A stretch of DNA of 31,472 nucleotides from a virus: positions 1 to 31,472 of the IMG/VR virus record IMGVR_UViG_3300027746_000066; one strand, written 5' to 3'. Below the pieces are notes generated by a model. The model was not told where the DNA came from and did no database searches. It worked only from the letters and a program-made list of their open reading frames with translations. Positions 1,571-14,841 of this stretch are shown one piece after another; the first letter of the stretch is position 1, and each line of letters opens with the position of its first letter. Position numbers and translations under genes: made by a program.

Positions 1571-3399
1571 GCTGTCATCATCTCCGGTCCAGCAGGCGCG
1601 CCGGGAATCGGCGCAGCCTCTGGTACAGTCTCAGCGGCTGGCGGACGCATCATGTCAGCAGCCAGCATCAGGTATTGCCGGAGCGCCTCTAGCCGCTCCT
1701 CTGGAGCGCCTGCGGTCCTCTCCTGCAGGTACGTTGCCTGACCTAGCTGGAGAATCGCCCGGAGGTCGTCCAGAGCCTCTGGGACCGGCGCAGGCATGCC
1801 GTCAAGAATGCTCGCAATCTGGGAGCGCGCTGCGTCCTGGCCAGCCAGTAGCCTGCCTCGGCTCTCGTCCAGGTCCGGGATGTCGAGAAGCTCGAGGGCC
1901 TGCTCCCTAGGAATCATGCCCGTTGCGATCAACTCTTGGACTTTTTCGACGCGTCCCGAGGGCTGAGAAGGCAGCAGCGCGGCCGGGTAGCATTGCAGGA
2001 AATACGCGTCGTCCTCCAGCGAAACGGACGACCAATCGATGCGCTCCTTGGTGCTCCGGCCGGGTACATCGACCGAGAAACCGTCAAGCTCGCGAGCTTC
2101 ATCGAGGCAGAGCCTGACAACGTCAAGGAACCACTCTTCGCGCCTCTTGCCTTGAAGTAGGAATCTCTCGCTACCGATGTCGGAATACTCTCGGATACTG
2201 GCTCCGCTATTGAGCCCAGCAGGCTTGCGAGCGCTGGAATCAAGCGCAGAGACGCCGACCTCTTCGAATGCCTGCGCTCTCAGCGTCATCAAGTGCGAAT
2301 ACACGTCCGGAGGCATCGTGGGAGGCGCGTGGACCTTGATGGGGTCGCCAGGATGCGAGCTAACGAGGACGGCAGCGACCTCGTTTGTGATGTGCGTCTT
2401 GGGGATGCCCGAGGTCTCGTCGAGCACGACGATAGGGCGCCCCAATAGGTGGTGCGCGCGCTGGATGCGCATCAACAGCTTGTTGATTTCGAGTTGGATG
2501 CCGGTCAATCGCTCCGAGATGCCGATGCCCCAGAACCCGACGACGGGGTCAACGTAGCGACGGAAAGCGAACGGGAATCGGTCACGCTCCCACGGTTCGT
2601 CGAAGAGCGTTGCACCCTGGACGGCGATAACGTGGCGACCGTCCTGTGCGCTCTGGCTGCTGCGCAGATGCCACGCCTCCCAGACCTCGACTTGGTCCGA
2701 TAGCGTGTCTCGTCCGGTAAGCTCCCTGGAGGGCTCCGGAGCGCGCTCGATTGCTCGACGCCGCTCCGCTGCCTCCTCGGAGTCTCCTGCACCGTAGAGT
2801 TCCGCAAGGACGCCACGGTCGATGAACTTGCGTCGGATTAGCTGGCGCGGTTCTCCGTACATCGCCTCGACGTCATCGACCAAGATTTCCCACGGATAGA
2901 CGCGCTCCGAACGGATTCGGCCGGTCTCTGCATCGGAGTAGACGTGGAGACATCCAGTCCCGAAGATTGCCGCGTCACGCTCGATGGTGGGAGCGATGCG
3001 GTAGGCGTTCGACTGATGCAGGCAGCCTTTGCCAAACTTGTTGAGCTTTTCTGCCTTTCGGCGCACATCGTAGTCGGCGCCGCTGGTAAGAAACATCGGC
3101 GCAGGAGTGCTCCGCACCATCTTGGCGACGTATGTATCGCTGCAAGCCTGGACCACGTTCCAGGCCACGCGGAGGTCAGTCGGCAGGACTCGAGAGTAGG
3201 ACCCGGGGAAAAGTCCGAAATACTCGGCGCCTCCGTAGAGGCGCAGATGGCGCCGGTCCATCTCATGACGGCTGCGGGAGCGCTCAGCGAGAAACGCAGC
3301 GACTCCCACCAACGCATGATGCGACTTGCCGGGGTCCTGCAACCACCAGCGACGGTCAGAGACACGACCGCCTGCAAATTGACGCAAATCGACGGCCAT
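1567..3399 (-). CDS. Portal protein
   Basis: This 610-residue protein sits immediately downstream of the large terminase and a 64-aa ORF, and just before scaffold and coat. It has the look of podovirus portals: an aromatic-rich N-terminal region (LRLYGG, then NVVQACSDTYVAKM), a wing/stem region (ERDAAIFGTGCLHVYSD, VYPWEILVDD), a long central segment (FPFAFRRYVDPVVGFWGIGI followed by LTGIQLEINKLLMRIQ, typical of the clip/stem helix), and a Pro-rich C-terminal tail. Portals form the dodecameric ring through which DNA is packaged and ejected. The start at 3399 follows the previous stop by a few nucleotides. The stop overlaps the scaffold ATG. No truncation is visible. Confidence 0.88.
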   Translation of the reverse strand: MAVDLRQFAGGRVSDRRWWLQDPGKSHHALVGVAAFLAERSRSRHEMDRRHLRLYGGAEYFGLFPGSYSRVLPTDLRVAWNVVQACSDTYVAKMVRSTPAPMFLTSGADYDVRRKAEKLNKFGKGCLHQSNAYRIAPTIERDAAIFGTGCLHVYSDAETGRIRSERVYPWEILVDDVEAMYGEPRQLIRRKFIDRGVLAELYGAGDSEEAAERRRAIERAPEPSRELTGRDTLSDQVEVWEAWHLRSSQSAQDGRHVIAVQGATLFDEPWERDRFPFAFRRYVDPVVGFWGIGISERLTGIQLEINKLLMRIQRAHHLLGRPIVVLDETSGIPKTHITNEVAAVLVSSHPGDPIKVHAPPTMPPDVYSHLMTLRAQAFEEVGVSALDSSARKPAGLNSGASIREYSDIGSERFLLQGKRREEWFLDVVRLCLDEARELDGFSVDVPGRSTKERIDWSSVSLEDDAYFLQCYPAALLPSQPSGRVEKVQELIATGMIPREQALELLDIPDLDESRGRLLAGQDAARSQIASILDGMPAPVPEALDDLRAILQLGQATYLQERTAGAPEERLEALRQYLMLAADMMRPPAAETVPEAAPIPGAPAGPEMMTA

Positions 3400-3403
3400 C
3401 TAA

Positions 3404-3598
3404 TCACCCGCTCGCTGCAAAAAGTAGAGATTCTTCGTCGTCGCGTGCGCGGGTCTGGCGCTCTTCAAGCGACACCGGCCGGTCAGTCTCAACAGCGCGC
3501 GTGGGCGGTCCAGCCCATTGGACCTCGACATCGCCGACGCGGACTCGGACGGCTCCCGATGCGCGGAGATGCTCGATAAGCGATGCAAGCTCGCTCAC
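3404..3598 (-). CDS. Small protein between terminase and portal
   Basis: A 64-residue protein starts at a GTG that overlaps the terminase stop (sequence TGGTGA), with a GGAGAGGA ribosome site just upstream inside the terminase gene. The open frame extends further upstream, but only as a shadow of the terminase. The protein has an N-terminal helix (SELASLIEHLRASG), a short beta hairpin (VRVRVGDVEVQW), and a charged tail rich in Arg, Asp and Glu. Phages with this gene order often carry a protein of this size and shape here; its function is not known. Coupling on both sides suggests it is made together with terminase and portal, possibly as a head or packaging accessory. I do not recognise a family with certainty. 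Confidence 0.7.
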   Translation of the reverse strand: MSELASLIEHLRASGAVRVRVGDVEVQWAGPPTRAVETDRPVSLEERQTRARDDEESLLFAASG

Positions 3599-5028
3599 CA
3601 ATCCTCTCCCGGTGCCGAGTCCTGCTTCCGGCTCCACGCCTGACGTTCTCTCTCTCGCCATTCTCTCGCCTGCTGTGCTGAATGCTCTGGAGTGCCTGCG
3701 GCCGGGAGTGTCGCTGGGGTCTGGCTCGCATAGGAGCGCGCCATTCTCCAGCCGTACAATAGCGCGTCGGAGATATGGTCCGCTAGTCCCGGTGCCGCAT
3801 CGGTCCCGGCAGGGTTCCATAGAAGGTTATCCAACTCGCTGATTAGCTCTCGGCAGGAGTCCGCACGGAGTTTGATGCGACCGTCCCGAAAGGCTCCGTT
3901 GAGGAGCTTCCGATAGCCTAGCTTGTCTCGCTTCTCTGCTGCCCTGGCTGCGATTCCATAGCGCGCTCGCATCTCGTTTCCGTAGCCACGACCAAGCGCG
4001 CCTTCGTCAAGGATGGTTCCATCCCAGACGCAGCCGGATTCCCGGTAGCGAGCCTCGGTGGCTTTGATGCGCTCTGCCAAGCTCGACGGCGTTAGCCCCG
4101 CCTCTTTCCAGGCTTCCGAGATATAGGTGACCTCGTCGTGCGGATGCCACAACACCACGACGAATCCAGACGTGGGCTCACGCTCCGATGCGCCAAGGTC
4201 AACCGCGAGGATAACGCGCCAATCGTCACGCTCCGGGATGGCGCTGACGGCGTTGCGCTCTGCCTCGTAGCGATAGATGCGTCCAGCCTCATCCTGCAGC
4301 CAGAGACCGCGCTCGAGTTGGTCCCGCGTCGTGTCGTCGAGCAGGGATAGCGCGCGCCGGTATTCGGCACGGTCAAGGTGAGGATTGTCGTCAATCTTGG
4401 CTGGGATGAACGGCCTAGAGGTGTCCGGAGGCTCAATGAACCTCGATTTGACCCATGAGTGGCCTACGCCTCCCGGGTTGGTCGCTGCGCGCATCCCGAG
4501 CGGCACCGAAACGCCAGCCACGCGCCGGATTCGGCCGAGGAGGTAACGATACGGTCGTTCCTCCCATTGCGTGAGTTCATCGACTCCGATGCGATGCAGT
4601 TCGCTTCCCTGGTATCGAAATACGTCTGCGGGAGACTCGCAATAGCCGAATGAGAGCGTTGCCCCGCTGGGAAACGTCCAGCGCTTTTCCCGGTCATTCC
4701 AGCTTGCCCCGGTGCCGCTCCACCACGACCTAGCGCGGTCCATCAGCGCTCCGGGCAACGAAAGGTCCGTGTACGTCCTGCGCAGCAGCAGGCCAGCGTA
4801 TCCAGGCACGTCGAAGAAGCGCGCATGGTCCATCAGCAGCGCATCGGACTTGCCGCCACCGGCTGCGCCTCCATAGAGCGCCTCGAAAGCCTCGGAGGCG
4901 AGGAACGCTAGCTGACGCTCCGTGGGGAGATGCGGGCACCACCTGGCGAGGCTGGAGAGACCGCGCCGGTCCAACTCCATCCGGACCACGCGCTGCAGGA
5001 TGGCGCGCTCGAGGCTCACAGATGCCAA
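3595..5028 (-). CDS. terL: Terminase large subunit (packaging ATPase and nuclease)
   Basis: This 477-residue protein is the DNA packaging motor. The N-terminal ATPase domain shows a Walker A loop GGAAGGGKS (residues 53-61), a Walker B segment RIGVDELTQW with D150 and catalytic E151, and a coupling motif TNPGG (183-187). The C-terminal RNase H-like nuclease domain shows AVDLG (D277), ILDEG (D341, E342) and DHISDALLYG (D417, D421), the acidic cluster that cuts the concatemer. Length is normal for the family. It overlaps the upstream GNAT-like gene by 13 nt and the next small gene by 4 nt. The start at 5028 is an upstream choice; the conserved part begins near residue 30. All key residues appear intact. 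Confidence 0.95.
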   Translation of the reverse strand: MASVSLERAILQRVVRMELDRRGLSSLARWCPHLPTERQLAFLASEAFEALYGGAAGGGKSDALLMDHARFFDVPGYAGLLLRRTYTDLSLPGALMDRARSWWSGTGASWNDREKRWTFPSGATLSFGYCESPADVFRYQGSELHRIGVDELTQWEERPYRYLLGRIRRVAGVSVPLGMRAATNPGGVGHSWVKSRFIEPPDTSRPFIPAKIDDNPHLDRAEYRRALSLLDDTTRDQLERGLWLQDEAGRIYRYEAERNAVSAIPERDDWRVILAVDLGASEREPTSGFVVVLWHPHDEVTYISEAWKEAGLTPSSLAERIKATEARYRESGCVWDGTILDEGALGRGYGNEMRARYGIAARAAEKRDKLGYRKLLNGAFRDGRIKLRADSCRELISELDNLLWNPAGTDAAPGLADHISDALLYGWRMARSYASQTPATLPAAGTPEHSAQQAREWRERERQAWSRKQDSAPGEDW

Positions 5029-5438
5029 ATCGAGCAGGGGTTGAAGCGGAGAGTCCGACTATCCTCCATCGACATCCAACGGTCTGTCCGATGAGAATAG
5101 GTCTCCATTTGGCCATCCCGGTCCGCTGCGTCGAGCAGAGCGGCCATGAGTCCGCTTGAACGCCGGAGCTGCGTCACGTAGCAGTAATGGAGCGTCGGAC
5201 CTCGCCAGCAGACCCAGCCGAGAAGGTGGTCGCGGTCATCAGGCTCGCACGCTACCAGCGTCGATGATGACGCTAGGATGCGCTCCACGCGTCGGAACAT
5301 TGGCTGCCTGTAGTGCGAGACCTTGACGCCTCGCACGTCCCTGGAGCCCCTGTAGTAGCTCTCCACCCATGAGTGAGCGACGAGTCCGGTATCGCTAGGC
5401 TCCGCAGCGCGGATTAGGCACGGCCAAGGCAGCGTCAT
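5016..5438 (-). CDS. GNAT-like acetyltransferase-fold protein in the packaging operon
   Basis: This 140-residue protein begins with LIRAAEPSDTGLVAHSWVESYYRG, which resembles the opening strand and helix of GNAT N-acetyltransferases. It continues with a core strand (STLVACEPDDRDHLLGWVCWRGPTLHYCYVTQLRRSSGLMAALLDAA). In classical GNATs the VTQLRRSSGLMAALL region would be the acetyl-CoA loop (R/QxxGxG/A); here it reads RRSSGLMAAL, a plausible but relaxed version. Similar proteins lie beside terminase genes in other podoviruses, without a known substrate (family memory). It overlaps the small terminase stop by 4 nt and the large terminase by 13 nt. It may modify a virion or host protein, or use the fold structurally; the sequence does not decide. 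Confidence 0.65.
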   Translation of the reverse strand: MTLPWPCLIRAAEPSDTGLVAHSWVESYYRGSRDVRGVKVSHYRQPMFRRVERILASSSTLVACEPDDRDHLLGWVCWRGPTLHYCYVTQLRRSSGLMAALLDAADRDGQMETYSHRTDRWMSMEDSRTLRFNPCSIWHL

Positions 5439-5935
5439 CGGCCACCGTCCAGCAGCGCTCGAGCCGCTGCCGACAACTCCGTATCGGTCATCCTATCGAC
5501 GGCATCGACGGCAGCGAGTTGGACGGGACCGCCTCCGGGTCCTGAGATTTCCTTGCGCTCCTTCGGAGGCGCCCACCTCGCCGGGATTCGACGTTCCAGC
5601 GCCCATGCCTGCGCCTTCCAGTCGTCCGCTTCCATGATGCGCCCAACCGCCTGCGCCTCCCACGATGCCCTGGCGTCATCGATGCGCTGCCTCAGCGCCT
5701 CGTCTGCGCCCATCGCATCGTAAAGAGAGCGCCTGGGAATCGCGAGCTTGGCACAAGCCGCAACGATTGGGATGCCCAACTCCAGCATGGCCACCAAGGC
5801 GCCGATTCGCTCATCATTCCGCCACTCTGCGCGCGCGCGACTGTGCGCCACGAGGTCAATGGAAACAACATCCCTCACAGCACCCTGGACAACTTCCGGG
5901 ACGCTCTCAGCCGAGACCGGCCTCTTCTTGCGCAT
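5435..5935 (-). CDS. terS: Terminase small subunit-like DNA-binding protein
   Basis: This 166-residue protein carries a helix-turn-helix at about residues 53-75 (GIPIVAACAKLAIPRRSLYDAM), followed by a helical segment (DEALRQRIDDARASWEAQAVGRIMEADDWKAQAWALERRIPARWAPP). HTH plus a helix ending in W-x-LERR-x-P-x-R-W is common in small terminases and their relatives, which recognise the packaging site and hand DNA to the large subunit. The gene lies two positions upstream of terL in the same operon, which supports the role. The tail is Gly/Pro-rich and then helical. Its start overlaps the end of the small CxxC ORF by 29 nt. A generic phage HTH regulator is the alternative. Confidence 0.78.
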   Translation of the reverse strand: MRKKRPVSAESVPEVVQGAVRDVVSIDLVAHSRARAEWRNDERIGALVAMLELGIPIVAACAKLAIPRRSLYDAMGADEALRQRIDDARASWEAQAVGRIMEADDWKAQAWALERRIPARWAPPKERKEISGPGGGPVQLAAVDAVDRMTDTELSAAARALLDGGR

Positions 5936-6056
5936 CTCGTCTCCTGAGCTGGCAGGGCACGCACGTCCCCGCGTCTAGCGCTCGCTCGCATTCTAGCGCT
6001 CCGCATCGGCGGCAGCGCTCCCGCTCATGTTGGCACCGAATAGCACAACAGAGCAA
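5907..6056 (-). CDS. Small CxxC zinc-ribbon-like protein (TTG start)
   Basis: A 49-residue frame starts at TTG 6056, seven bases after a clear GGAGAGA ribosome site. It contains C15xxC18 (CRRC) and C32xxC35 (CVPC), spaced as in a zinc ribbon, with extra Cys at positions 3, 4, 8 and 23 and many Arg residues. Proteins of this kind bind zinc and often nucleic acid. It overlaps the preceding ORF by 32 nt and the small terminase by 29 nt, consistent with the compact packing of this operon. The longer ATG version of the same frame (to 6269) runs through the neighbouring ORF and is unlikely. Function is unknown. Confidence 0.5.
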   Translation of the reverse strand: MLCCAIRCQHERERCRRCGALECERALDAGTCVPCQLRRRDAQEEAGLG

Positions 6057-6366
6057 CCCAGAATCTCTCCGGATTGGCGGCAAGCTCTCCCGGATGCCAA
6101 CCGGAGCTTCGAGCCTCTGCTGAGTGCGCCCACCTCGTCGCAAGCGCGGCGGCAATGCAATCCGCTCTGCCGTCCCCCAGGCCCCGGCAGGCCATCCGCT
6201 CGCACCATGCTCCGAGCCGTCCCCAGCCATGCCAATCGCCCTCCTCCAGCAGCCCGTGGGGCGCTCCATCGACCTCGTCCACCGCTACCCGACACCACTC
6301 CCTCACAAGCTCTGGCATGGAGAGTGCTACGCGTGCGCGCGCTCTCTTATTCTTATTCTCTATCAT
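6025..6366 (-). CDS. Hypothetical protein, first ORF of the packaging operon
   Basis: This 113-residue protein is Trp- and Cys-rich (VREWCRVAVDEVDG, GWGRLGAWCERMACRG, ALATRWAHS, ERFWVALLCYS). It starts either at ATG 6366, which gives a Lys/Arg-rich leader, or at ATG 6318 (MPELVREW). AGAGG lies nine bases before 6366, and 6318 has no ribosome site, so I favour 6366. I do not recognise the family. It opens the leftward terminase operon. Two other minus-strand frames overlap it (5907-6269 and 5993-6298), but this one has the more protein-like composition. Confidence 0.5.
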   Translation of the reverse strand: MIENKNKRARARVALSMPELVREWCRVAVDEVDGAPHGLLEEGDWHGWGRLGAWCERMACRGLGDGRADCIAAALATRWAHSAEARSSGWHPGELAANPERFWVALLCYSVPT

Positions 6367-6547
6367 CTATTCTAGCCTCTATCCTAGCCTCTACTCTAGC
6401 CTCTAAGCGTCTTTCTATTTTGGTTGTTAGGGTTTCCTCTAAGTTCAGCATCATATTGGAGAAAACCCGTAAATAAGATGCTGCACTTAGAGAAAACCCA
6501 TAACTAAATACTAAAAACCGCTTAGAGGCTAGCTTAGAAGCTCTCAT
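6353..6547 (-). CDS. Doubtful 64-residue ORF over the A+T-rich repeats
   Basis: An open frame of 64 codons runs across the large inverted repeat. Its N-terminal half is hydrophobic and aromatic (FLVFSYGFSLSAASYLRVF). Its C-terminal half is a charged helix (NLEETLTTKIERR, followed by three copies of the four-residue unit EAR plus L, V or I) that comes from the 12-bp tandem repeats. A repeat period of exactly four codons would suit a coding sequence. Against it: there is no ribosome site, codons are A+T-rich and unlike every neighbour, and the DNA itself forms a large palindrome. I list it so that it is not lost, but the region more likely acts as DNA. Confidence 0.25.
   Translation of the reverse strand: MRASKLASKRFLVFSYGFSLSAASYLRVFSNMMLNLEETLTTKIERRLEARVEARIEARIDDRE
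6371..6406. repeat. Three 12-bp tandem repeats
   Basis: Three adjacent copies of TCTAGCCTCTAT-type units differ only at the first and last base (6371-6382, 6383-6394, 6395-6406). The last copy is part of the left arm of the large inverted repeat. Short A+T-containing iterons next to a helicase gene can be initiator-binding sites, but no initiator gene was recognised. Confidence 0.85.
6396..6532. repeat. Large imperfect inverted repeat, candidate origin or control element
   Basis: The left arm is 6396-6454 and the right arm 6475-6532, with a 20-nt spacer. The outer 14 bases (CTAGCCTCTAAGCG) are perfectly inverted. The inner 25 bases (around CTCTAAGTnCAGCAT) match at 22 positions. The middle part is A+T-rich and diverged. 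The whole stretch is strikingly A+T-rich within a G+C-rich genome. It lies in the gap between the helicase operon and the packaging operon, both leftward. Possible roles are a replication origin, a structured leader of the late transcript, or a packaging recognition site just upstream of the terminase genes. I see no convincing -10/-35 pair in it. Confidence 0.8.
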
Positions 6548-6558
6548 AGGAGCTTCTA
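6535..6558. other. Perfect 9-bp stem-loop
   Basis: TAGAAGCTC and GAGCTTCTA flank a six-base loop (TCATAG). It follows the right arm of the large inverted repeat by two bases. No T-run follows on either strand, so a classical terminator is not supported; a protein-binding or structural role is possible. Confidence 0.6.
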
Positions 6559-6822
6559 CGGAGAAGCGCGGGCGCGCGCGCGAGGGTCGTCTTGGTCGCT
6601 GGCTGGTTGCACCGTCCGGCAGCGTGGCCGATTGGAGCGCCTAGGATGGCGCTAGAAGCGCTCCCAGCCGTCAAGACGGCCGCAGGTAGCACCCAGGCTG
6701 CTAGCGAGGCTTCTGGGGGATTCTAGGGGCTGCTCGAGTTATCCAGCCGGAGGGGCTGGAGTATTATGCGCGCGCTTATGCCCGGTTAACGCGCGCGCAA
6801 ACCGTATGCGCGCGCATACGCG
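6559..6822. other. Non-coding gap with clustered dyads
   Basis: No convincing gene was found here. Dyad elements are GGAGCGC (6634-6640) with GCGCTCC (6658-6664), GCCGTC-AA-GACGGC (6667-6680), TCCAGCC-GGAGG-GGCTGGA (6742-6760), and runs of alternating G and C at about 6567-6582, 6768-6775 and 6791-6798 that could adopt left-handed DNA. Together with the large inverted repeat just to the left, this marks the gap as a regulatory or replication region rather than decayed coding sequence. No tRNA-like fold is evident. Confidence 0.55.
6803..6820. repeat. Perfect 18-bp palindrome just after the helicase stop
   Basis: CGTATGCGCGCGCATACG is a perfect palindrome two bases beyond the helicase stop codon. 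It could be a dimeric protein site or part of a transcript end. A hairpin would have little loop and no T-run, so intrinsic termination is uncertain. Confidence 0.65.
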
Positions 6823-8121
6823 CTACCAGCCGCCCTTGGCCTTCTTCGGGGCTGGTCCGCCCTGTTCTTGAAGCAATCCATAGCCATCTCGGCGCATCCA
6901 GAATCGTCGCCCAGCGCTGGCGCGCTTGACCTTGGCGACCTTGCCAAAAACGCAGCCGTATCGAGGGTCCGACTCCTCGTCAGTCTCTCGCCAGAGCAAG
7001 ACGATAGCCTGCGCGGAGTTCTCTATGTCTCCGGATTCTTTGAGGTCACCGTCCCCTGGTTCCTGGTATTTGCCGCCTTCGCTGGCGCGCCTGAGTTGGC
7101 TGGCGAGCACCAGCGTTGCGCCAAGTTGTGCTGCGGCAGCCATGAGGGTCGCGAGGCTATCGTTGACTTTTTCACGCGTTGAGCTTCCCACGTCCCGGTG
7201 TCTGATGGCCTGGAGGTAGTCCACGAGGAGCACCTTGCAGCCACGCACTCGGACCATGTAGGCCATCCGCGACACCACGCCCTCGATGCTGCGGGACCTG
7301 ATTTTTGCGAATGAAATCGGGAGGTTGGCCTCTCGGTCAATGCCTGCTGAGATGGGCGTAGAGTGCTCCGCTCGGAGTCCGGTTGACCACATTGCCGAGG
7401 TGTCTACGCCGGAGATTGCGGCCAAGCCCTTAGAGCCGAAATCTTCGGCGCCGTCCTCGATGCTGATGATGCCGACCGGAGTCCCGGAGCGCGCCAGCGA
7501 CATCGCCCACGTCCAGAGAAGCGTGGATTTGCCGACGTTTGTGGCTGCGCCGAGTACCACTAGGTCACCCGGTCCAGCCCGGAAAACATCGTCGAGGCTA
7601 GGTGTGCCGAGGCGCACGAATCGCTTGGTTTTGCTGGCTTCGGAGAGTGCTGAAACCGACTCCGTCAAAAGCTCTCGGAACGTCAACACCGGGTCCTCGG
7701 AGACGTCCTCGGAGAACGCCACCGCGGCCAGCGCTGAGCGCGCCTCGAGCAGAGACCCGCGTTCCGCAAGCGCTGCAGCCTGGAGGCTAGCGTCCCTGAG
7801 CGTCCTGGCCTGCGAGAGTTCTCGGAGCCGTCGAGCGCAGGCGTGTGGGTCTAGCTCCAGCGTAGACTCAAGCTGGAGCAGCCGGTCTTCGCCGACCTGC
7901 AATAGCCTGCCCTGGCGGTCCAGCTCTAGGCGCAGCGCTGACGGCGTGACCTCCTCGCGTCGAGCGCGAATGGCCACTAGTGCGCCGAGCAGCGCTTGGT
8001 GTGCTGGGCTGGTGAGGTCCCCGTGGGTGACTGGAGCCTGCTCCAGCGCTTCGGCGCGATGTAGGACGCTGGCTAGGTAACGAAGCTCAAGCGCGGGGTC
8101 AGCGCACGTCAGAGCCGCCAC
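6823..8121 (-). CDS. DnaB-family replicative helicase
   Basis: This 432-residue RecA-fold helicase has an N-terminal helical domain (about residues 8-100), a linker, and an ATPase core. Motifs are Walker A GAATNVGKST (191-200), catalytic E222 in IISIED, Walker B VLLVDYLQ (D301), SQLRR (341-345) and the DnaB-type KESGDIENSAQAIVLLWR (361-378). It unwinds DNA ahead of the replication fork on the lagging-strand template. The C-terminus is short and Lys/Pro-rich (PAPKKAKGGW). It is the last gene of a leftward operon behind a Cro/CI-like regulator and overlaps the 70-aa ORF by 13 nt. No primase domain is attached. All core motifs appear intact, so it should be active, probably with host DnaG and polymerase III. 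Confidence 0.92.
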   Translation of the reverse strand: MAALTCADPALELRYLASVLHRAEALEQAPVTHGDLTSPAHQALLGALVAIRARREEVTPSALRLELDRQGRLLQVGEDRLLQLESTLELDPHACARRLRELSQARTLRDASLQAAALAERGSLLEARSALAAVAFSEDVSEDPVLTFRELLTESVSALSEASKTKRFVRLGTPSLDDVFRAGPGDLVVLGAATNVGKSTLLWTWAMSLARSGTPVGIISIEDGAEDFGSKGLAAISGVDTSAMWSTGLRAEHSTPISAGIDREANLPISFAKIRSRSIEGVVSRMAYMVRVRGCKVLLVDYLQAIRHRDVGSSTREKVNDSLATLMAAAAQLGATLVLASQLRRASEGGKYQEPGDGDLKESGDIENSAQAIVLLWRETDEESDPRYGCVFGKVAKVKRASAGRRFWMRRDGYGLLQEQGGPAPKKAKGGW

Positions 8122-8321: not shown

Positions 8322-8425
8322 ACGCCCAGCCTCTCTGCGCCCTCTAGACGCGTCTCCAGTCGAGCCAGCAGCACCGCGGCTCGACGGGCCGCGCGCCCAG
8401 CGAGTCGGACTAGCGCGAGGGTCAT
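8318..8425 (-). CDS. 35-residue Arg/Ala/Leu protein
   Basis: A 35-codon frame begins at ATG 8425, which overlaps the stop of the HTH gene as ATGA, and ends in a TGA that overlaps the next ATG. GGGGGAG lies six bases before its start. The product (MTLALVRLAGRAARRAAVL and on) is predicted as one basic amphipathic helix ending in an acidic segment. The tight coupling on both sides is the main evidence that it is translated; nothing indicates its function. Confidence 0.55.
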   Translation of the reverse strand: MTLALVRLAGRAARRAAVLLARLETRLEGAERLGV

Positions 8426-8637
8426 CGGCGCTCCCCCGGCGTCAGCCGCAGCACGTCGGCAACGGAGAGCCCGGTAGCCCTCGAGATGGCGCGCGCGACG
8501 CGCATTCCGGGGATTTCTCCGGGGGTAGCGGCTGCATACGTCGCCAGCGTCGGGCGGCTAATACCTGCCGCTCTAATGACGCGTTCCGATGCTCCGAGCC
8601 CCTCTACCTGTAGCCACCTCGCCAGCTTGTTAGCCAT
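8422..8637 (-). CDS. Cro/CI-like helix-turn-helix regulator
   Basis: This 71-residue protein has the pattern of small phage regulators: ERVIRAAGISRPTLATYAAATPGEIPGMRVARAISRATGLSVADVLRL holds the paired helices of an XRE/Cro-type HTH (about residues 18-64). The start is ATG 8637, preceded by GGGAGGATGGAGC. The open frame extends upstream across the control region, but that part is arginine-rich noise. It lacks the dimerisation/cleavage domain of lambda-like CI, so it is more Cro-like. It lies at the head of the leftward early operon, with an operator-like palindrome 70-90 bp upstream, so it probably represses its own and the divergent promoter. No integrase is present in the window. Confidence 0.78.
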   Translation of the reverse strand: MANKLARWLQVEGLGASERVIRAAGISRPTLATYAAATPGEIPGMRVARAISRATGLSVADVLRLTPGERR

Positions 8638-8706
8638 GCCTGCTCCATCCTCCCGCGCACAGATGCGCCCGATGCCAATACCAGCGCGGGGCTTGCGAGG
8701 CAAGAA

Positions 8707-8735
8707 ACCATGCGAAAAATGTTTTTCGATGCCAA
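8707..8735 (-). promoter_or_regulatory. Leftward early promoter candidate
   Basis: On the minus strand TTGGCA (8735-8730) and CATGGT (8712-8707) are separated by 17 bases. The -35 is good and the -10 weak (three of six). The operator-like palindrome fills the spacer, so a bound regulator would block this promoter. Confidence 0.45.
8713..8728. promoter_or_regulatory. Operator-like palindrome
   Basis: CGAAAAA-TG-TTTTTCG is a 16-bp dyad with 7-bp arms. The half-site TGCGAAAAA recurs in direct orientation at 8711 and 8736, suggesting a second, weaker site toward the rightward promoter. The location between divergent early operons, next to an HTH gene, makes it the likely binding site of that regulator. 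Confidence 0.6.
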
Positions 8736-8748
8736 TGCGAAAAAAAAC

Positions 8749-8777
8749 TTGCACGATTCCGGCACGTCCTGCATGCT
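8749..8777 (+). promoter_or_regulatory. Rightward early promoter candidate
   Basis: TTGCAC (8749-8754) and CATGCT (8772-8777) are spaced by 17 bases, about 50 bp before the first rightward gene. The -35 is good and the -10 weak. It would drive the plus-strand operon. Confidence 0.45.
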
Positions 8778-13345: not shown

Positions 13346-13708
13346 GTGAACCAGCGTGATATCTACGTCATGATGGACGTCTACGCCGAGCGCGACCGGC
13401 AGCGCTCACTAGGCTACCTCGACGCCCACGATTACTGGGACGGCACGGGGCAGCATCTCGACAAAGCGCTCCCGCTGCCGTCCGCTGCGTCAGTGCGCGC
13501 GCGCGCCGAGGCTGCATTCGCGGTGCCGTGGGCGCTGGTGCTGCTCGAGGAAGTTCTTGAAGCGCTCGAGGAGCACGATGAGGAGAGGCTCCGAGAGGAG
13601 CTAATCCAAGTCGCGGCTGTGGCGGTTCGATGGGCGGGTGCGATTGATGACAGAATGGCTGCGGAGACAGATTACGATGAGCGCACCAAGAGGTCTTGGA
13701 GGCCATGA
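13346..13708 (+). CDS. MazG-like nucleotide pyrophosphohydrolase
   Basis: This 120-residue protein starts at GTG 13346, five bases after AGAGG. The longer frame is partly a shadow of the HTH gene. The core PWALVLLEEVLEALEEHDEERLREELIQVAAVAVRWAGAID matches the all-alpha NTP pyrophosphatase family, with the first metal motif EExxE (E68, E69, E72). The second motif is usually ExxD and here reads E85-L-I-Q88, so one metal ligand may be changed. The enzymes hydrolyse NTPs or dNTPs to monophosphates and shape nucleotide pools. The N-terminal 55 residues (YAERDRQRSLGYLDAHDYWDGTGQHLDKALPLP) are an extra segment. Activity is uncertain because of the Q. Confidence 0.65.
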   Translation: MNQRDIYVMMDVYAERDRQRSLGYLDAHDYWDGTGQHLDKALPLPSAASVRARAEAAFAVPWALVLLEEVLEALEEHDEERLREELIQVAAVAVRWAGAIDDRMAAETDYDERTKRSWRP

Positions 13709-13908
13709 GCATCAAGCGAACGCTTGTGGAGGTCATCGACTCCGACCATTGCTCAGCGTTGAGAGTGCCAACAAGCGCACGCTTTGGGACGGTCTCAATA
13801 GAGCTAGAGCTATGGGAGGTCGAGCCGGTGGACGGCAGAGTCAGAGCGAGGCTGGAGCTAGACGCATCGCACGCCCACGCGCTAGCCAATGCGGGAGAGT
13901 TACATTAA
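13705..13908 (+). CDS. Small hypothetical protein
   Basis: This 67-residue protein starts at an ATG overlapping the previous stop as ATGA; TTGGAGG lies close upstream. It has beta-strand-like stretches (TLVEVIDSDHCSALRVP, FGTVSIELELWEVEPVDGRVRARLELD) and a short helical tail. It resembles many small phage early proteins but no family is recognised. Confidence 0.55.
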   Translation: MSIKRTLVEVIDSDHCSALRVPTSARFGTVSIELELWEVEPVDGRVRARLELDASHAHALANAGELH

Positions 13909-13978
13909 GCGTCTTCATGCCGCCGAAAAAGAGAACAAAAGGCTCAGGGAGGCTCTGGAACGCATTTATCCATCATAA
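13889..13978 (+). CDS. 29-residue coiled-coil peptide
   Basis: ATG 13889 opens a 29-codon frame whose product (MRESYIKRLHAAEKENKRLR and on, ending in YPS) is a classical short amphipathic helix with Leu/Ile spacing. It overlaps the previous gene by 20 nt. No ribosome site is seen. A competing frame from ATG 13918 (27 codons, basic) ends in an ATGA overlap with the next gene; only one of them is likely used. The composition favours the coiled-coil frame. Confidence 0.4.
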   Translation: MRESYIKRLHAAEKENKRLREALERIYPS

Positions 13979-13996
13979 TAAGCGAGGAGACAGCGA

Positions 13997-14197
13997 ATGA
14001 CCGATAACAATGAACTTCTAGAGGCGGCAACAGAGCTTGTACTCACCCTCCGTTCGTGGGGCCTACACCACACCGGGATGCTGCTGACGAGAGACGCAGA
14101 CACCGGAAAGCCTGTAGGCGGATGGGCCGGGGAGCGTTTGGAAGCAGAGGTGCTCCGGTTGCGCGCAGCAAATGAAAGCTTGCAAGCGAATAAGTAA
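13997..14197 (+). CDS. Last gene of the rightward operon, hypothetical
   Basis: This 66-residue protein has a strong GAGGAG ribosome site. It contains two helices (NNELLEAATELVLTLRSWGLHHTG and GERLEAEVLRLRAANESLQANK), the second heptad-like. It ends just before the convergent hairpin. The function is unknown. Confidence 0.6.
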   Translation: MTDNNELLEAATELVLTLRSWGLHHTGMLLTRDADTGKPVGGWAGERLEAEVLRLRAANESLQANK

Positions 14198-14199
14198 TG

Positions 14200-14227
14200 G
14201 CTAACAGCAGTAATCGCTGCTGCTAGC
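14200..14227. terminator. Hairpin between convergent operons
   Basis: GCTA-A-CAGCAG and CTGCTG-C-TAGC pair with one mismatch around the loop TAATCG. It spans three bases after the rightward stop and covers the stop codon of the leftward gene at 14223. Being symmetric it could end both transcripts, but no T-run follows on either side. Confidence 0.45.
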
Positions 14228-14417
14228 GCTCGCGAAACTTGAGGCTAGCCTCTAGCTCAGCGTGGGCACGTCGAGCCGATGTCAGCAACTCTCCGGAGAG
14301 GACCTCGCGTACACGCGCCGGGTCCTCTCCGCGTGATGCCTCCTCGGCTGCGCGGATGACCTCGATGAGCGCGCCAACCACGTCGAGCGCTGTACGCGCA
14401 ATCTCAGTCGGCGTCAT
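14223..14417 (-). CDS. Small helical protein at the end of the late operon
   Basis: This 64-residue protein starts at MTPTEIARTALDVVGALIEVIRAAEEA, inside the end of the lipoprotein gene (14-nt overlap). The longer frame is Arg/Trp/Cys noise. Helices (1-28 and about 36-60) with a charged linker give no motif. Similar-sized proteins near lysis genes of phages have no known role. It is the final gene of the leftward late unit. Confidence 0.55.
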   Translation of the reverse strand: MTPTEIARTALDVVGALIEVIRAAEEASRGEDPARVREVLSGELLTSARRAHAELEASLKFRER

Positions 14418-14841
14418 GGCACGTCCCCGCATAGCTCGACAGGGCGCCCAGGGCGCCCGATAGCGGCCCGAGGCTAACGCCGACTGCCGCCAGCGCCTGC
14501 GCGAGCCTGGAGAGCGTCTGCAGGCCACACGGAGCCGCTGCCATGAAGCTCCGACCGGAGTCGGTCCACGCATCGACGAGAGACTCCAGCGACAGCAGCG
14601 CCAGCAGCGCAGCGCGCTCCGCGCTCTCGGCGGCATCCCACGGCCGCATGGTCGCATCGTACTCCGCGCGCGTCTGGGAGCTCCCCAGCGCCTCGCTAGA
14701 GGCTTCTGCGTAGCGTGGCGCTAGTATCTCGTCTGTCTCCCGTAGTGCTACGGCAGCGACCGCCAGCGAGTGCCGTGCGGTCTGCTGCGCTGAGACGCAG
14801 CCGGAGGCCAGCAGCGCGAGCGTTAGCGCAGCGGTCCTCAC
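14404..14841 (-). CDS. Lipoprotein, outer-membrane spanin candidate
   Basis: This 145-residue protein starts at GTG 14841, overlapping the stop of the i-spanin candidate (GTGA). The N-terminus (MRTAALTLALLASGC) is a lipoprotein signal with the lipobox LASGC, so Cys15 would carry the lipid and anchor the protein in the outer membrane. Spanin pairs consist of a membrane-anchored coiled-coil protein and such a lipoprotein, and they join inner and outer membrane during the last lysis step. At 145 residues it is longer than most o-spanins, and its helical Ala/Leu/Ser body is unusual. The alternative is a lipoprotein acting in superinfection exclusion. Confidence 0.65.
   Translation of the reverse strand: MRTAALTLALLASGCVSAQQTARHSLAVAAVALRETDEILAPRYAEASSEALGSSQTRAEYDATMRPWDAAESAERAALLALLSLESLVDAWTDSGRSFMAAAPCGLQTLSRLAQALAAVGVSLGPLSGALGALSSYAGTCHDAD

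Follow-up and report, generated by a model that had tools for sequence, protein, structure and literature searches.

We identified a DNA element that looks cis-acting, an A+T-rich island built around a giant imperfect palindrome, at the head of the packaging genes in an IMG/VR phage record of 31,472 bp, analysed over its whole length and referred to here as the window. The reading we favour, to which we assign a probability of roughly 0.35, is that the island is a candidate packaging-linked cis site recognised by TerS. The DnaB-like replicative helicase gene (6823-8121) is separated by a gap of 457 bp from a small ORF (6025-6366, starting at position 6366 or at 6318). Then come a terS-like gene (5435-5935), another small gene (5016-5438), terL for the terminase large subunit (3595-5028) and the portal/adaptor and capsid genes; the helicase, small ORF, terS-like gene and terL lie on the minus strand. 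The terS-like gene and the adjacent small gene are 27% alike, and each resembles small terminase subunits, or proteins whose genes precede terL in other phages. We compared the window with two relatives at a DNA identity of about 80-82%, L003 and the 34.8-kb contig G001 (loci L009, L159 and L004), a circular relative which closes via a 99-bp end repeat. The window itself is not closed, as a relative carries ~1.1 kb more between the window ends, including the remainder of the capsid gene.

The A+T-rich island in a G+C-rich genome reported in an earlier note on this DNA is readily recovered (37% vs 63% G+C), being the lowest-G+C 150 bp of the window at 0.373 against a mean of 0.628 (sd 0.053), with the next lowest at 0.46. 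The palindrome is likewise real and is larger than first described, with a core hairpin of 137 nt (6396-6532) formed by 51 complementary, nested pairs around a centre of 14 unpaired nt. The perfect 14-bp arms, CTAGCCTCTAAGCG (6396-6409) and CGCTTAGAGGCTAG (6519-6532), had been assigned to a 58-bp palindrome; they belong instead to the outer pair of the 137-nt hairpin, within which an inner imperfect palindrome (CTCTAAGTTCAGCATC / GATGCTGCACTTAGAG, 6437-6492) carries one mismatch. The palindrome is the sole inverted self-match within the window and scores 99.7 bits, compared with at most 34 bits in 200 mononucleotide shuffles, and its fold z reaches -12.7 for the minus and -12.0 for the plus strand, with 0/200 shuffles as stable. 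Adjoining it is the 9-bp stem-loop TAGAAGCTC-TCATAG-GAGCTTCTA (6535-6558), as previously noted, where a local palindrome is also found in L009 and, with different letters, in L003. N15 telRL, a protelomerase telomere site, is also a large palindrome in a phage genome, but the centre of the island is not a perfect palindrome and the protelomerase family gave no match among the genes tested; on these grounds a protelomerase telomere was rejected.

Two sets of short repeats fall within the island. Three tandem 12-bp repeats around CTAGCCTCTA (6371-6406, plus strand, copies at 6372, 6384 and 6396) had been described as iterons, and although all three are present in the window each of both relatives has a single copy, which rules them out as conserved iterons. 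The 13-mer GGGTTTYCTCYAA has three exact matches in the window, all of them within the island, with two copies in one orientation and one inverted. These are the inverted copy GGGTTTCCTCTAA (6430-6442, plus strand), GGGTTTTCTCCAA (6456-6468, minus strand) and GGGTTTTCTCTAA (6487-6499, minus strand), the last of which has degenerate counterparts at 3084/3146 in L003 and 12528/12590 in L009; such degenerate copies occupy corresponding positions in the relatives, their number alone in L009 being no more than chance. On the helicase side of the island a (CG)n tract (6568-6582), with a partner tract at 6330-6342, is conserved in all three genomes.

Comparison with the related phages, proposed in the earlier note, showed an A+T-rich, fold-back island kept at the same position in both L003 and L009 (40% G+C in the relatives). 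The outer 10-bp arms are identical in all three genomes, CTAGCCTCTAAG on one side and TAGAGGCTAG on the other; a further TAGAGGCTAG copy at 14.24 kb, in the window and a relative, was not counted as it appears within a conserved coding tail (AELEASL, read by eye). Between the arms the palindrome interior (6424-6510) is hypervariable and close to unalignable with the relatives, central 30-column bins showing 30-43% identity between the window and L003 or L009 vs about 90% between L003 and L009, and yet the whole still folds back there (core hairpin fold z -8.7/-6.9 in L003 and -4.7/-4.7 in L009). Because the interior alone is strongly structured in the window and weakly in the relatives, arms and interior have to be judged together. 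The interior of the window aligns with those of the relatives weakly and about equally in either orientation, as expected of a diverged palindrome, and an inversion of the interior was therefore rejected; the weak similarity in both orientations points to a shared, fast-changing palindrome. These interiors were too diverged to align for RNA covariation analysis, and RNAalifold on the three close genomes gave no useful signal.

The surroundings of the palindrome behave very differently from its interior. A noncoding flank (6521-6755) is about 90-91% identical to G001, rising to 98% in the 60-bp bin 6541-6600, and ranks second among all 240-bp bins for identity to G001, though noncoding. In the small ORF on the other side of the island 25% of third positions have changed vs 45% in the helicase (window vs L003), indicating that constraint at the DNA level reaches into this ORF, which on its substitution pattern is probably coding with an extra DNA-level constraint. 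No family match was found for the small ORF and its structure model is unreliable (pLDDT 52), with a hint that the first 16 residues are unstructured. The 64-residue frame, whose translation the earlier note named as evidence against an origin, is not conserved in the relatives, and its translation was rejected; the island thus holds up as a noncoding, A+T-rich palindromic element of cis-acting appearance, conserved in position where the frame is not.

Conservation of this kind bears on whether the palindrome has a selected role at all. It could instead be a relic of fold-back or MITE-like type, sitting in an A+T-rich spacer that tolerates it and maintained as a palindrome through template-switch (quasi-palindrome) correction, as might be suggested by a right arm which differs between L003 and L009 while the left arm is the same, with pairs partly lost, by the varying number of tandem repeats and by the patchy occurrence of giant palindromes among related phages. 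We regard a relic as improbable however, given that few parts of the genome are as conserved as the flanks and that the position of the island and its outer 10-bp arms are invariant in three genomes. Homologous palindromes in two other contigs, L117 and L122, show 6 compensatory pair changes vs 4 uncompensated, which again argues against a relic, as does the lack of a second copy in the window or in phage or plasmid records. On the last of these results a MITE or other insertion element was also rejected.

The hairpin could alternatively act as RNA, the minus-strand transcript serving the late (packaging) operon as a structured leader or junction RNA in which a hairpin of more than 40 bp would be cut by RNase III, or would control read-through or translation of the small ORF, following the logic of the lambda N leader. 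RNase III hairpins occur in phage leaders, as in the lambda N leader and at the T7 early mRNA sites, and the island resembles them in that, on the coding strand, an ORF is preceded by a long double-stranded stem. The hairpin is found on the late-gene strand in all three genomes (fold z -4.7 to -12.7) and abuts the start of the conserved small ORF, and in the relatives the outer stem contains the sole AGAGG Shine-Dalgarno-like stretch that precedes the upstream ATG. In the window, however, owing to the third repeat one Shine-Dalgarno-like copy remains outside the core hairpin, and the start codon of the small ORF is uncertain. Mispairs show no strand bias (G-T 2/2/3 vs A-C 0/3/2 in the three genomes), such that G-U pairs on the late-gene strand are not in excess over A-C mispairs (7 vs 5), and the plus strand folds about equally well. 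The stem is also very long in comparison with the known leader hairpins, the transcript is putative, and the orientation of genes around comparable palindromes varies in other phages. A search of Rfam 15 at gathering thresholds returned no known RNA family matching the hairpin, no promoter consensus was found, and the hairpin is not followed by a T run, for which reason an intrinsic terminator was rejected (the only match to a stem with a T run lies at 6054-6076). Beyond its position, these results on mispairs, strand folding, promoter, terminator and Rfam give no positive support for an RNA role, and we consider a leader RNA rather unlikely.

The earlier note had proposed a candidate replication origin next to the helicase operon. 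On this reading the adjacent DnaB-like helicase, together with a putative initiator or loader, would act at an A+T-rich unwinding region with iterons and a palindrome. The A+T-rich character and the conserved position of this lowest-G+C island have stood up, and the 13-mer present three times, in the window only in the island, and the neighbouring helicase gene agree with such a role. Lambda ori is an iteron plus A+T-rich replication origin. Phage satellites such as PLE use a noncoding region with iterons and inverted repeats as their origin (PMC7145576). Like these the island is A+T-rich and noncoding with repeated 13-mers and inverted repeats; unlike these its 12-bp repeats are not conserved, and the search of Pfam and PHROGs found no recognisable initiator gene, as the earlier note had remarked, families outside these collections being missed by such a search. 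DnaA boxes are absent from the island. The cumulative GC-skew minimum, suggested as a check, falls not at the island but 2.2-2.6 kb from it at a divergent operator-like region, lying at 9.07 kb in the window and, for the circular relative, at a point corresponding to about 8.7 kb of the window. This is weak evidence since skew follows gene orientation in these genomes. The tie to the helicase is also loose, as a C5-cytosine methylase gene (L009:11128-12288), absent from the window, separates the helicase from the conserved island block in G001. Comparable palindromes moreover lie before terS in phages where the window helicase was not detected, and one of these (in L133) has no skew minimum. 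An origin at the island is accordingly weakened, possible but not favoured, and we consider it unlikely. The divergent intergenic stretch at 8700-8750 carries conserved GCGAAAAA...TTTTTCG...GCGAAAAA operator-like repeats, coincides with the GC-skew minimum and adjoins a gene for a small HTH-like protein (about 8422-8640, weak Pfam hit); it is likely an early operator/promoter region and provides an alternative origin candidate.

The island is linked to the terS side rather than to the helicase, since the methylase insertion in G001 parts it from the helicase and leaves it on the terS side, and it lies 0.4-0.6 kb upstream of terS in the window, L003 and L009. Two further features of this neighbourhood vary between the genomes. 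Three GCGCGCGC-centred repeats directly downstream of the helicase (6768-6820) occur in variant form in L003 and are lost in L009, where the methylase gene is inserted, and in L009 terS is separated from the next gene by a second methylase-like gene (13602-14453, with a DPPY motif read by eye) which is absent from the window.

Of 35 genes compared between the window and G001, only one is less conserved than that of TerS, whose overall identity is 58-59% compared with 95% for TerL, 95% for the portal, 96% for the capsid and 94% for the helicase. Its divergence is concentrated in the N-terminal half, the N-terminal 119 aa being 50% and the C-terminal 46 aa 83% identical to L003, while the TerS proteins of L003 and L009 are 96% identical, the same split as that of the palindrome interior. 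The conserved small ORF (about 86%) and outer arms separate TerS from the interior, making a single contiguous swap unlikely. Such co-divergence of the TerS N-terminal half and the palindrome interior is what would be expected of a TerS recognition site, although it represents one contrast (n=1) and other loci, including putative tail and early genes, also diverge. Under the packaging interpretation the island would be a DNA-level cis site heading the packaging module. Repeated or palindromic sequence in it, including the three GGGTTTYCTCYAA copies, would be bound by the DNA-binding half of TerS, and the conserved flanks would assist in assembling a terminase complex from which packaging begins, giving the island a pac or cosB-like function. 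We infer binding by TerS and a packaging start at the island from these patterns, together with the DNA-level constraint through the small ORF and the lack of strand asymmetry in the mispairs. On the other hand, fast evolution of TerS may have other causes, and pac lies inside terS in some headful phages, which could explain the variation in TerS without the island. Packaging initiation sites of the pac/cosB type are known near terS in SPP1, P1, P22-like phages and lambda. The island shares with them its location close to and upstream of terS, its repeated and inverted motifs, conservation at the DNA level and, in the one contrast available, co-divergence with the DNA-binding half of TerS; its near-continuous 137-nt palindrome with fast-turning arms is unusual for pac or cos.

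Comparable palindromes were identified in a wider group of contigs with related TerL proteins. Within 4 kb of terL, self-inverted matches of at least 60 bits occurred upstream in 7/46 loci (a count that includes the window) and downstream in 0, a difference that is suggestive but not clean as the upstream side of terL holds more noncoding DNA. In controls, 42 contigs from an exact 16-mer scan of viral contigs whose matches were taken as chance, the maximum was 72 bits. Three of the contigs (L133, L112 and L145) contain giant A+T-rich palindromes unrelated in sequence 540-860 bp before a terS, with fold z of -6.8, -5.4 and -21.7 respectively. All three share the TerS family phrog_6299, the window TerS belonging to phrog_4102, and the window helicase had no match in their contigs in a search run with no positive control. 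The L145 palindrome (1571-1759) is 189 bp long and A+T-rich, with -99 kcal/mol at 25% G+C, and lies 538 bp before terS. Across the TerL group giant palindromes have a patchy distribution, and they were not found in most isolate phages checked, and our literature search on giant palindromes upstream of terS found nothing matching. A broader and more doubtful proposal is that giant A+T-rich palindromes of iterated motifs may form a class of terminase recognition sites, their sequence turning over quickly along with the TerS DNA-binding half but their palindromy and flanks being retained, and recurring upstream of terS in unrelated phages. In most environmental phages the sites at which packaging and replication start have yet to be located, and sequence similarity is of little help in finding them. 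If a giant A+T-rich palindrome ahead of terS does mark where packaging begins and changes together with TerS, its shape could serve to locate such sites in metagenomic genomes, and the co-evolution of TerS and its site, which keeps packaging specific, would be open to direct study. The homologous giant palindromes of L117 (2193-2382) and L122 (2181-2400) consist of CTYAACAA units and differ in place from that of the window; they occupy a long gap separating two convergent genes, on the downstream side of a phrog_6077 gene.
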